Positions 8,729 to 12,577 of a DNA stretch of 64,000 nucleotides are shown piece by piece; position 1 is the first letter of the stretch; each line of letters opens with the position of its first letter. The stretch spans positions 930,001 to 994,000 of the forward strand of contig NZ_CM001377.1 of the NCBI RefSeq assembly GCF_000237825.1. Direction: 5' to 3'. Under the pieces are notes generated by a model. The model worked only from the letters and a program-made list of their open reading frames with translations. It was not told where the DNA came from and did no database searches. A program made the translations under genes and the position numbers. The DNA is from Thermanaerovibrio velox DSM 12556. GTDB taxonomy: Bacteria > Synergistota > Synergistia > Synergistales > Synergistaceae.

Positions 8729-8758
8729 TTGACTTGTCGAGGTCGCCCATGGTATAAG
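8729..8758 (+). promoter_or_regulatory. Sigma-70-type promoter of the serine operon leader
   Basis: TTGACT at 8729-8734 and TATAAG at 8753-8758 are spaced by 18 bases, a near-consensus promoter. Predicted transcription start is about 8765, leaving a 25-base leader before the GTG start of the serine-rich leader peptide. Confidence 0.7.
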
Positions 8759-8789
8759 CAACCAAATTTTACGAAGAGAGGTGAAGCCG

Positions 8790-8966
8790 GTGCATATCAT
8801 GTCATTACTTCGCAATCTAAAGATGTGCTCCACAACCTCTCAGGCACTCAATACGGAGGCTTTAGGTTATCGTTTTTCTTCCCACTCAGGTTCCCTCTCT
8901 TGGTCCTCTTCAAATTCTGGAGAGGATACGGTTGGATCATACATCGTACCTGGGCCCCCGATATAG
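8790..8966 (+). CDS. Serine-rich leader peptide (predicted attenuator)
   Basis: This 58-codon frame begins with GTG at 8790, five bases after an AGAGGTGA ribosome site, and ends with TAG at 8964-8966. Thirteen of 58 residues are serine, and nine of the 14 codons from 30 to 43 (8877-8918) are serine: SSHSGSLSWSSSNS. It has its own strong promoter upstream and a strong terminator 49 bases after its stop. Genes for the phosphorylated serine pathway follow. I recognise no protein family. The composition and placement match a leader peptide of ribosome-mediated attenuation, where uncharged tRNA-Ser would stall the ribosome in the serine cluster. A longer in-frame GTG at 8781 lacks a spaced ribosome site. 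The regulatory role is inference; the codon cluster and its flanking signals are directly visible. Confidence 0.8.
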   Translation: MHIMSLLRNLKMCSTTSQALNTEALGYRFSSHSGSLSWSSSNSGEDTVGSYIVPGPPI

Positions 8967-9015
8967 ATGAAATCCCGTGATAGAGCTAAATTTAGCAGAT
9001 TAGAGGGTTATCTTT

Positions 9016-9053
9016 AGCGGGGGAGGCTGCTACGAACCTCCCCCGCTCTTTTT
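9016..9053 (+). terminator. Attenuator terminator upstream of the serine genes
   Basis: A perfect 11-base-pair GC-rich stem (9016-9026 with 9037-9047) and a 10-base loop are followed by CTTTTT. It lies between the leader peptide stop and the aminotransferase gene. Its left arm (CGGGGG, 9018-9023) can instead pair with CCCCCG at 8955-8960, inside the last leader codons, with CTAAA (8986-8990) adding pairs to TTTAG (9013-9017). That gives a candidate antiterminator. Confidence 0.88.
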
Positions 9054-9137: not shown

Positions 9138-10274
9138 TTGAGAATGCTATTAACCCCAGGACCAGTTGAAGTCCCCTTTGACGTATCTATTCGCGGCAGC
9201 ATGCGGATGATATCCCACAGGGGGCCTGAGTTCTCCAGCCTCTATTCTGACCTGCTTCACCAATTATCCCGTCTCTTTGAGGTTGAAGAGCCTCCAATCC
9301 CGATACCTGGATCAGGTACGGGAGCGTTGGACGCTCTTTGCGGGAACTTGATATCCCCGGGTGATAGGGTCATATCAATATCTTGCGGATTCTTCGGCGA
9401 AAGATTCCGTGAGATAGCGTCAAGGTGCGGGGCTTCCCTGGAGATCATAGACGTACCCTGGGGGGAATCGTTGGAGGTCCACCACCTGTTAGAAGCGTTG
9501 GAACGTTTCCCAAACGCGAGGGCAATACTTCTGACCCACAATGAGACGTCCACTGGGGTGCTTAACCCGGTAGAAGATCTGGCGGGATCTGTTCCTAAGG
9601 ATGGGCCATTGATACTTTTGGATGCGGTAAGCTCCGCAGGGGCTATGCCTTGCCTTCCCGAAAGGTGGGGCATTGATGGTGTAGCCGCCTCTTCACAGAA
9701 GGGATTGATGGCCCCCCCGGGGGTCGGATTGGTATGGCTATCCAAGCGGGCTTGGAGTAGAGCCCAAGAGGTACGGTGCCCTTCCTACTCCATGGATTTG
9801 AAGTTATATAAGAAAAACTTAACCGATGCTCCGGAAACTCCATACACTCCCCCGGTATCCCTGTATGCCCAGCTACTAAAGGGGGTTGAGATCATCCTTA
9901 GTTCTGGCAAGGAAGAATGGTGGAAAAGTCGGGCCCGCATTTCTAGGGCCCTATGCGCTGCCGTGGAAGCAATGGGATTGGACCTCTTGGTTAAATCCCC
10001 AAACAGGAGATCCCCTGGCTTAACCGCTATAAAAATGCCCCCTAATCTAGCCAATGGAGTTCGCTCAAGTCTAAAGGGCATGGGGCTTCAAGTGGCGGGA
10101 GGGCAAGGGGGGCTTAAGGACAGCCTCATCAGAATTGCCCATTATACGGATATGGACTGGCCGGAGGTTTGCATGATCATAGGATCCCTATGGAGAGCCT
10201 TAAATGATCTTGGAGTAAGGGCCGATGTCGGCTGTGCCCTTGAAACGGCGAATAAGATTATGAGCGAGAGGTGA
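9138..10274 (+). CDS. Class V aminotransferase, likely phosphoserine/serine-type transaminase
   Basis: This 378-residue PLP enzyme belongs to the alanine-glyoxylate/serine-pyruvate aminotransferase group. It has the N-terminal LTPGPVEVP, the glycine-rich PGSGTGALDA, LLDAVSSAGAMP and the Schiff-base lysine K188 in SSQKG. The start is TTG at 9138, eight bases after AGGAGGT; an ATG two codons later has poorer spacing. It is not the classical SerC subtype. Being first in an operon with serA and a phosphatase, it most likely transaminates 3-phosphohydroxypyruvate in serine synthesis, as related class V enzymes are thought to do where serC is absent. Glycine/serine-pyruvate transamination is the alternative. 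Confidence 0.88.
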   Translation: MRMLLTPGPVEVPFDVSIRGSMRMISHRGPEFSSLYSDLLHQLSRLFEVEEPPIPIPGSGTGALDALCGNLISPGDRVISISCGFFGERFREIASRCGASLEIIDVPWGESLEVHHLLEALERFPNARAILLTHNETSTGVLNPVEDLAGSVPKDGPLILLDAVSSAGAMPCLPERWGIDGVAASSQKGLMAPPGVGLVWLSKRAWSRAQEVRCPSYSMDLKLYKKNLTDAPETPYTPPVSLYAQLLKGVEIILSSGKEEWWKSRARISRALCAAVEAMGLDLLVKSPNRRSPGLTAIKMPPNLANGVRSSLKGMGLQVAGGQGGLKDSLIRIAHYTDMDWPEVCMIIGSLWRALNDLGVRADVGCALETANKIMSER

Positions 10275-10280
10275 GTTGCC

Positions 10281-11930
10281 GTGTGGAAGGTCTTGGTTAC
10301 CGAATCGATCCATGAGGAAGGCCTTAAAATCCTGCGAGACGCCGCAGATGTGACCCTGGTTGAAAGGGTTGGTATATCCAAGGAGGAGTTTTTGGCAGAA
10401 CTTGCAGACGCGGATGCCTTGCTAACTAGGAGCGGCACCGCCATAGATGTCCACGTGCTTGAATCGGCGCCCAAGCTTAAGGTGGTAGCAAGAGCAGGGG
10501 TTGGGGTGGATAACGTAGACCTTATGGAGGCAAGCAAGAGGGGTATTGTAGTGATAAACGCCCCTACGGGTAACACCCTGTCTGCAGCGGATCACACTAT
10601 GGCCCTCATGTTAAGCCTCGTACGAAGGGTGCCACAGGCTCATGCCTCCATCTTGGCGGGCAAATGGGATAGAAAGAGCTTCATGGGGCACCAGCTTCAT
10701 GCTAAAAAGCTCTTCATCATAGGTTTGGGGAAGATCGGTAGCCAAGTGGCTATCAGGGGAAGGGCTTTTGGCATGGAGGTTTACGCATATGATCCCTACG
10801 TGCCGGAGGTTAAGATGGATAACCTTGGGGTAGCACGGGTTGATAGCCTTGAAGATGGGCTTGCTATCGCAGATGTGGTGACAATTCATGTCCCTCTAAC
10901 TGATGAGACCAGGGGAATGTTGGACGAAAATCGCATAAGAACCGTTAAGCGAGGGGCTTACCTGATAAACTGCGCAAGAGGCGGCTTGATGGATGAGGTC
11001 GCTTGCTACAACGCGCTAAAAGATGGAAGGTTATCAGGGGTGGCCATAGATGTATATGGGCATGAGCCGGTTAGCAGTGACCATCCTATTTTAAGCGAGG
11101 ACGTTAGAGACAGGGTGGTATTGACCCCGCATATAGGGGCCAATACTTTCGAGGCCCAATCGGCAGTCGCCAGGATAGCTGCACAAAATCTGCTGGCGGC
11201 GTTAAGAGGTGAACCGTATGAGCATGCGGTCAACCTGCCATTTATGAAGCATCGGCTATCAGACTTGAAAAAAAAGTTCCTGGCCTTATCTAGAAACCTC
11301 GGCATACTGGGCACCCATATGGCGGATCTAACAAAAGGGGCCGTGAAATCCTGCAGCTTGGTGCTCAGAGGGCCTGTATTTCAAGAGGAAGATGAGCCGA
11401 TAAAGTTCGATGCACCATTTAGATTGAAACCCTACACCGTGGCTTTCCTTAAGGGGCTTCTGGAGGTACGGCATGGAGCTGAGGTTAACTATATGATAGC
11501 CCCGCTTATTGCCCGGGATAAGGGCATAGATATCGAGGAGGGCACGGGAGAATCCAACACCTATAGGAACGTCATAGAAGTGGTCATAACCACAGAGAAG
11601 GGTTCCGTCCGGCTTATGGGAACAGTTACAGAGGAAGGCAGACAAAGGGTGGTTAGAATAAACGATTACTGGCTCGATCTGATACCTTCGGGCAAGATTT
11701 TGCTATTCCAGAACCACGATAGGCCTGGTGTAATAGGCAAGGTGGGGACTTTGCTTGGCAGGGCCAACGTCAACATAGCGAACTTCGCTTTAGGTAGAAA
11801 GAATGAGAGCGGCCTTGCCCTAGCAGCGATGCAGATAGATCAAGACCTTAGCGAAGACCTGCTCAAAACCCTCAGAGAGGATGTGGACCTCATCTGGGCC
11901 ACCACGGTCTCGTTGAAGGAGGATCTGTGA
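10281..11930 (+). CDS. serA: D-3-phosphoglycerate dehydrogenase
   Basis: This 549-residue enzyme oxidises 3-phosphoglycerate to 3-phosphohydroxypyruvate, committing carbon to serine. The NAD-binding GLGKIG is at residues 148-153. The catalytic Arg/Glu/His region is visible as NCARGG and LTPHIGANT. An intervening ASB domain and a C-terminal ACT domain follow (about 475-549, NHDRPGVIGKVGTLLGRANVNI), matching the long type common in Gram-positive and deep-branching bacteria. ACT domains usually bind serine for feedback control. The start is GTG at 10281, following GAGAGGTGA and six bases after the aminotransferase stop. Confidence 0.96.
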   Translation: MWKVLVTESIHEEGLKILRDAADVTLVERVGISKEEFLAELADADALLTRSGTAIDVHVLESAPKLKVVARAGVGVDNVDLMEASKRGIVVINAPTGNTLSAADHTMALMLSLVRRVPQAHASILAGKWDRKSFMGHQLHAKKLFIIGLGKIGSQVAIRGRAFGMEVYAYDPYVPEVKMDNLGVARVDSLEDGLAIADVVTIHVPLTDETRGMLDENRIRTVKRGAYLINCARGGLMDEVACYNALKDGRLSGVAIDVYGHEPVSSDHPILSEDVRDRVVLTPHIGANTFEAQSAVARIAAQNLLAALRGEPYEHAVNLPFMKHRLSDLKKKFLALSRNLGILGTHMADLTKGAVKSCSLVLRGPVFQEEDEPIKFDAPFRLKPYTVAFLKGLLEVRHGAEVNYMIAPLIARDKGIDIEEGTGESNTYRNVIEVVITTEKGSVRLMGTVTEEGRQRVVRINDYWLDLIPSGKILLFQNHDRPGVIGKVGTLLGRANVNIANFALGRKNESGLALAAMQIDQDLSEDLLKTLREDVDLIWATTVSLKEDL

Positions 11931-12577
11931 TGAATCTAGTCTTGATTAGGCATGGTCAGACCGATTGGAACAGAGAGGGTCGATTTCAAGGGAGGATTGA
12001 CGTACCCCTTAACGAAGTTGGTTCTCAAGAGGCATTGGCTTTAGCATCTAGGTTGAGAGATGTCAATGTAGATCTGATAGTCTCAAGCCCCTTAAGCAGG
12101 GCATTGAAAACCGCTGAGGCCTTAGCCCAGTTGAATATGGGCATGCCGGATTTGGAGATTTGGGAGGACCTTGCAGAAATAAACCACGGCGATTGGGAGG
12201 GGTTGCTTTTCGAAGAAGTCCTCGCGAAGTGGCCCGACCTCCTGCGCCTTTGGAGGATTCGTCCGTCAGAGGTCACCATGCCAAACGGGGAGAACCTTGA
12301 TCAAGTTGCCCAAAGGGCAAATAGGGCTATCGGGGTTACTAAAGACAGATTATCTACTAAGGATGGAACCGTGTGTCTAGTAACCCATGACGCGGTTATA
12401 AAGGTCATCCTTTGCAACGTCTTACAGGCCCCCTTGGACTCGTTTTGGCGGTTTATAATACCCAACGCAAGCCTTACGGTGATAAGGTTTATCGAAGGTA
12501 TCCCCAAGCTGGCCCTCTTGGGAGATTCAAATCACCTTAACAGGGGATTTGTCTTTTCAGAGCAGAGGGGGTTGTGA
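11930..12577 (+). CDS. Histidine-family phosphatase, likely phosphoserine phosphatase
   Basis: This 215-residue protein of the phosphoglycerate-mutase-like superfamily has the catalytic RHG triad (phospho-histidine H8) in LIRHGQTDWNREGRFQGR, plus SSPLSRALKTAEAL and the second histidine in VTHDAVIK. Superfamily members include cofactor-dependent mutases, CobC and metal-independent phosphoserine phosphatases such as those described from Hydrogenobacter thermophilus. Lying directly behind serA, with its ATG overlapping the serA stop, it is the natural candidate for the last step, phosphoserine to serine. A GTG one codon earlier is possible, but the ATG is better placed behind AAGGAGG. Substrate is inferred from context. 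Confidence 0.85.
   Translation: MNLVLIRHGQTDWNREGRFQGRIDVPLNEVGSQEALALASRLRDVNVDLIVSSPLSRALKTAEALAQLNMGMPDLEIWEDLAEINHGDWEGLLFEEVLAKWPDLLRLWRIRPSEVTMPNGENLDQVAQRANRAIGVTKDRLSTKDGTVCLVTHDAVIKVILCNVLQAPLDSFWRFIIPNASLTVIRFIEGIPKLALLGDSNHLNRGFVFSEQRGL

Follow-up and report, generated by a model that had tools for sequence, protein, structure and literature searches.

In the trp, his, leu and thr attenuators of Proteobacteria, a leader open reading frame (ORF) rich in codons for the pathway product is followed by a shared RNA arm and a terminator ahead of the first gene. Some attenuators are multivalent, as in ilvGMEDA (isoleucine, valine and leucine) and thrABC (threonine and isoleucine), where a single leader carries codons for two or more of the pathway's products. 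Actinobacteria have cysteine leader peptides (PMC1262725) and Rhodobacterales a cysS uORF (PMC8632094); in these, an ORF with a codon run precedes its own metabolic or synthetase gene, and the actinobacterial leaders lack an obvious terminator.

Serine biosynthesis has described regulators of its own. The serine T-boxes of Firmicutes serve this pathway and respond to the charging of tRNA-Ser, but bind the tRNA directly and without translation (PMC8002221). The serC RNA motif of Alphaproteobacteria (RF00517) sits upstream of a serC-serA operon; in the available part of its description, two short stems are proposed to sequester the ribosome-binding site, and neither a leader ORF nor a terminator is described (PMC1273637).

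The locus considered here occupies positions 8729–9053 of the window, that is, the whole stretch of 64,000 nucleotides that was analysed. We interpret it, with a probability of about 0.9, as a ribosome-mediated transcription attenuator of serine biosynthesis, of the classical type and widespread in its order. It shares the product-codon leader, common arm and terminator of the proteobacterial systems and differs in that serine would be the regulatory amino acid, in its occurrence in Synergistota, and in an unrelated leader sequence. The regulatory amino acid also sets it apart from the cysteine leaders. Like the multivalent attenuators, these leaders carry codons for more than one pathway product, in this case serine with an enrichment of glycine and cysteine, although a response to the latter two is conjectural.

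A serine leader-peptide attenuator was not reported in the open-access full texts that were searched. The available part of the main text of a study of intergenic regions in the synergistete Thermovirga lienii likewise reports no such element (PMC6429828). Serine would thereby join the amino acids whose synthesis is attenuated through leader peptides, in nine families of one order. The Synergistota ferment amino acids, and the literature found reports no such attenuator for this phylum; serine is fermented to acetate by Thermanaerovibrio acidaminovorans (PMC3035242). The approximately 70 natural leaders also form a comparative set for asking which serine codons are sensitive to starvation, and whether a branched pathway can have several of its products reported by a single leader.

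Parts of the leader and the operon behind it

The genome behind the window is a single contig of 1.88 Mb from the phylum Synergistota. The locus contains an ORF with a start signal, clustered serine codons, and a terminator before the first gene (Table 1). The first-pass annotation had described a near-consensus promoter, a ribosome site, a 58-codon frame with nine serines in codons 30–43, a hairpin of 11 perfect base pairs with a T-run 49 bases past the stop codon, and a serine-pathway operon beyond it. The leader elements are present as described at the level of individual bases, with serine at codons 30, 31, 33, 35, 37, 39, 40, 41 and 43, and the three operon genes were identified by Pfam and NCBIfam models. 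The same annotation had placed a hairpin of eight pairs in the serine cluster (8904–8911 with 8919–8926). These pairs exist, one of them being G-U, but the predicted stem is longer, at 10 bp (8903–8912/8918–8927; −14 kcal/mol, z −3.3, fold of 8898–8932). CCTCTTC...GAGAGG pairs resembling this hairpin occur at loci L004, L005 and L009.

Table 1. Features of the serine leader and the downstream operon, in window coordinates
Feature	Position	Strand	Description and basis
Sigma-70-type promoter	8729–8758	+	TTGACT 8729–8734, 18-nt spacer, extended -10 TGG-TATAAG 8753–8758; sequence and orthologous leaders
Shine-Dalgarno-like GAGAGGTG serving the leader ORF	8776–8783	+	Sequence
Leader peptide ORF	8790–8966	+	GTG start 8790, 58 codons, TAG stop 8964–8966; homologous leaders in relatives
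Regulatory cluster	8877–8918	+	9 Ser codons in 14, all TCN; kept synonymously in relatives
Hairpin in Ser cluster	8903–8927	+	5' arm formed by Ser codons, 3' arm after the cluster; fold of 8898–8932
Antiterminator 5' arm	8955–8979	+	Covers leader stop codon; predicted partner 9005–9023; partner-swap test, 26 genera
Antiterminator 3' arm	9005–9023	+	Overlaps terminator 5' arm; predicted pairing
Intrinsic terminator	9016–9053	+	11 perfect pairs 9016–9026/9037–9047, T-run 9049–9053; sequence, scan and fold
Class V aminotransferase	9138–10274	+	Pfam Aminotran_5; adjoins serA throughout the order
serA, phosphoglycerate dehydrogenase with ACT domain	10281–11930	+	TIGR01327; PGDH_inter and ACT
Histidine-phosphatase-superfamily protein (PspA-like)	11927–12577	+	His_Phos_1; overlaps serA by 4 nt

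The promoter arrangement recurs in most orthologous leaders as TTGACA-17/18-TGnTATAA[AG]. A consensus scanner overlooked the promoter because it requires T at position 6 of the -10 element.

No canonical serC was found in the genome behind the window, which suggests that the aminotransferase probably fills the SerC step and is the phosphoserine aminotransferase of the pathway. SerA scores above the model cut-off (579.7 bits against TIGR01327, with a cut-off of 454). The product of the third gene is closest to the models for alpha-ribazole phosphatase and the phosphoserine phosphatase PspA, and falls under both cut-offs (148.6 bits against the NCBIfam PspA model, with a cut-off of 350). It is a candidate for the phosphoserine phosphatase that would round off the pathway.

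Occurrence of the leader and selection on its codons

A density of nine serine codons in 14 was attained in none of 5000 dinucleotide shuffles of the region, where the maximum was eight. Yet nine is also attained by one of the window's 850 other mechanical ORFs. Because background ORFs can match it in this way, serine density by itself is weak evidence, and it was rejected as sole proof of an attenuator. The case for the cluster is instead one of conservation.

Conservation was assessed across 65 orthologous aminotransferase-serA operons of Synergistota with sufficient upstream sequence. Homologous serine-rich leader ORFs precede 60 of these operons, in 26 genera, with a median length of 38 amino acids and 4–11 serines per 14 codons (median 7). 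A strict scan detected a terminator between leader and first gene at 55 of the 65 loci; a scan score of 25 is attained by 75% of real loci and by no shuffle. Hairpins were located in all 60 leaders, those missed by the strict scan being placed with relaxed scan settings or by visual inspection. The terminator starts 74–108 nt past the cluster window (5th–95th percentile), at a median distance of 43 nt from the leader stop codon. The alignment of upstream regions proposed in the first-pass annotation thus finds the cluster and terminator retained while the peptide drifts. The device is present in nine of 12 families. Where serA has no adjoining aminotransferase, the same leader and terminator lie directly upstream of serA at 11 of 15 loci, so the device tracks the serine pathway.

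A terminator and an antiterminator are also parts of T-boxes and riboswitches, and serine T-boxes regulate serine biosynthesis in Firmicutes (Paenibacillus, PMC8002221). The locus could therefore be imagined as an RNA that senses tRNA-Ser or binds serine, with an incidental ORF. This is extremely improbable, given that the in-frame serine codons and the arms are kept between genera while the remainder drifts. A search of Rfam with the window leader (E <= 10) returned nothing beyond chance-level scores for snoRNA and RAGATH models, and at the gathering threshold there was no match to 20 related loci. A T-box, a riboswitch or another known RNA family was consequently rejected, the T-box and RF00517 models being among those without a match.

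Selection on the serine codons in frame is seen among close relatives. Serine codons with one base change still encode serine in 56 of 83 cases, compared with 25 expected (about p = 8e-7 with each pair counted once), and 13 of 15 internal indels in the leaders have a length divisible by three (p = 3e-5). Third codon positions show no significant excess of substitutions within the cluster. TCN accounts for 89% of the serine codons in the cluster, and its share in the aminotransferase genes is 77% (p = 8e-9). During serine starvation of B. subtilis, ribosome density rises at UCN and cysteine codons and not at AGC/AGU (PMC3862929).

The cluster could alternatively be the by-product of a pyrimidine-rich RNA element, such as a hairpin arm or Rho site, with RNA structure alone exerting control. 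It is indeed CU-rich, makes the 5' arm of a hairpin, and favours TCC and TCT. However, AGY and TCA/TCG codons are found as well, serine survives through synonymous changes and in-frame indels, and glycine and cysteine are enriched in frame while proline, alanine and tyrosine are not. This explanation is accordingly judged very unlikely.

A further possibility is that the nascent peptide itself arrests the ribosome, as in TnaC, in place of codon starvation. The first-pass annotation had named a conserved peptide outside the cluster as a point against attenuation, and certain C-terminal motifs are kept within clades (CRSRN, LPVPAG, RSQSE and ASED). These motifs coincide or overlap with the antiterminator arm, and can be explained as a constraint on the RNA. 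Between genera, the peptides diverge widely in all but their richness in serine, glycine and cysteine, and arrest by the peptide has very little probability left to it.

Antiterminator pairing and ribosome position

For the window, folding predicts that 8955–8970 (CCCCCGAUAUAGAUGA) pairs with 9008–9023, with a CCC/GGG extension. An antiterminator had been proposed in the first-pass annotation as two short pairings, CCCCCG with CGGGGG and CTAAA with TTTAG; the prediction retains the antiterminator but as one longer helix. In other genera, comparable arms fall where the leader ORF ends: CCGGUCCCGAAACG is matched with CGUUUCAGGGACCGG in genus g6, and UCUCAAAGCG with CGUUUUGAGA in genera g5, g7, g18 and g21.

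Between genera, changes in the antiterminator arm go together with changes in the terminator arm, a result of the covariance and folding analysis suggested in the first-pass annotation. Across 26 genera, each leader's own antiterminator pairing averages −20.2 kcal/mol, against −17.0 kcal/mol when partners are swapped between genera (p = 5e-5). An antiterminator that excludes the terminator is thus accompanied by covariation, although the signal is weak in some clades, and at L021, L023 and L053–L055 the leader's own pairing is no better than swapped ones. RNAalifold yielded little or no consensus structure on the divergent alignments of clades C and E, because alignment of the spacer fails.

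The two structures can be separated by the RNA available to fold. The segment 8932–9036, which a ribosome at codon 43 would leave exposed on its 3' side before the terminator 3' arm is synthesised, is predicted to fold as the antiterminator, and 8979–9053 as the terminator. For the entire segment 8932–9053, the terminator is preferred at equilibrium (−38.6 kcal/mol), so the switch must be kinetic.

The position of the ribosome was modelled in two ways. In a first masking model, where RNA upstream and downstream of the ribosome may pair, a stall in the cluster did not differ from a ribosome at the stop codon. In a later model, only RNA 3' of the ribosome was allowed to pair. Sequestration of the terminator arm was then 0.66 with the ribosome on the last serine codon of the cluster. 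The value fell to 0.50 when the spacer was shuffled and to 0.26 when the ribosome was placed at the stop codon (both p = 7e-8, 26 genera), the latter drop being due in part to the smaller amount of RNA left. In the window, the 5' antiterminator arm lies over the stop codon, a geometry that fits masking by a terminating ribosome. Support for the switch thus comes from covariation and geometry and not from thermodynamics alone, the masking geometry being a modelled one.

This arrangement leads us to infer where transcription starts, that the leader is translated, that ribosomes stall in it and that read-through depends on serine. Transcription would begin at about 8765, with a ribosome following RNA polymerase and translating the leader ORF. 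If Ser-tRNA is charged, this ribosome would reach the stop codon and cover 8955–8979, making the antiterminator 5' arm unavailable. The terminator hairpin could then form, and transcription would end ahead of the aminotransferase gene. When Ser-tRNA is scarce, and perhaps Gly- or Cys-tRNA too, the ribosome would stall in codons 30–43 and leave 8955–8979 free to pair with 9005–9023. This would occupy the terminator 5' arm and allow polymerase into the operon. The serine genes would probably be transcribed in full only under serine shortage. The attenuator interpretation of the first-pass annotation is supported by conservation in orthologues and by covariation of the arms.

Glycine, cysteine and variation among the leaders

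Glycine and cysteine are the two amino acids derived from serine. Among the non-serine residues around the cluster, glycine accounts for 26% versus 10% in the aminotransferase gene, and cysteine for 9% versus 2%. This gene is the fairer reference, since an off-frame comparison is itself influenced by the serine codons. Only these two residues are strongly and frame-specifically enriched, with glycine present in 26 of 26 genera and cysteine in 23 of 26; other one-step neighbours of serine codons, such as those for proline, alanine and tyrosine, are not enriched in the cluster region. It is conceivable, at somewhat below even odds, that the leaders act as multivalent sensors for the serine family as a whole, such that shortage of serine, glycine or cysteine would relieve termination. 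The window leader has glycine in its cluster region and lacks cysteine, and sensing of the whole family therefore stays a proposal.

Serine leaders were not found before serS, upstream of aminotransferase relatives outside the phylum (L072–L075), or at the serA operons examined in family f11, which belongs to another class (L069–L071 and L094). At these four f11 loci, the gene for the aminotransferase overlaps serA or almost abuts it, and the same longer reading frame lies immediately upstream in 4/4.

Five of the 65 operons have no serine leader (L017, L018, L022, L052 and L068). Neither a leader nor a convincing terminator was seen at L017, L022, L052 and L068, whereas L018 retains a strong terminator before the operon. 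At L052, the leader region upstream of the aminotransferase is filled with short CCTCTTATTTAACTTTAGG-like repeat units.

Spacing between promoter and leader also varies. The leader start lies 24–41 nt past the -10 hexamer in most other genera, versus 7–9 nt in genus g11, where the leader begins with ATG (L020, L025, L030, L033, L036, L038, L039, L042 and L044). With so short a distance, the leader-peptide mRNAs of this genus appear to be leaderless.
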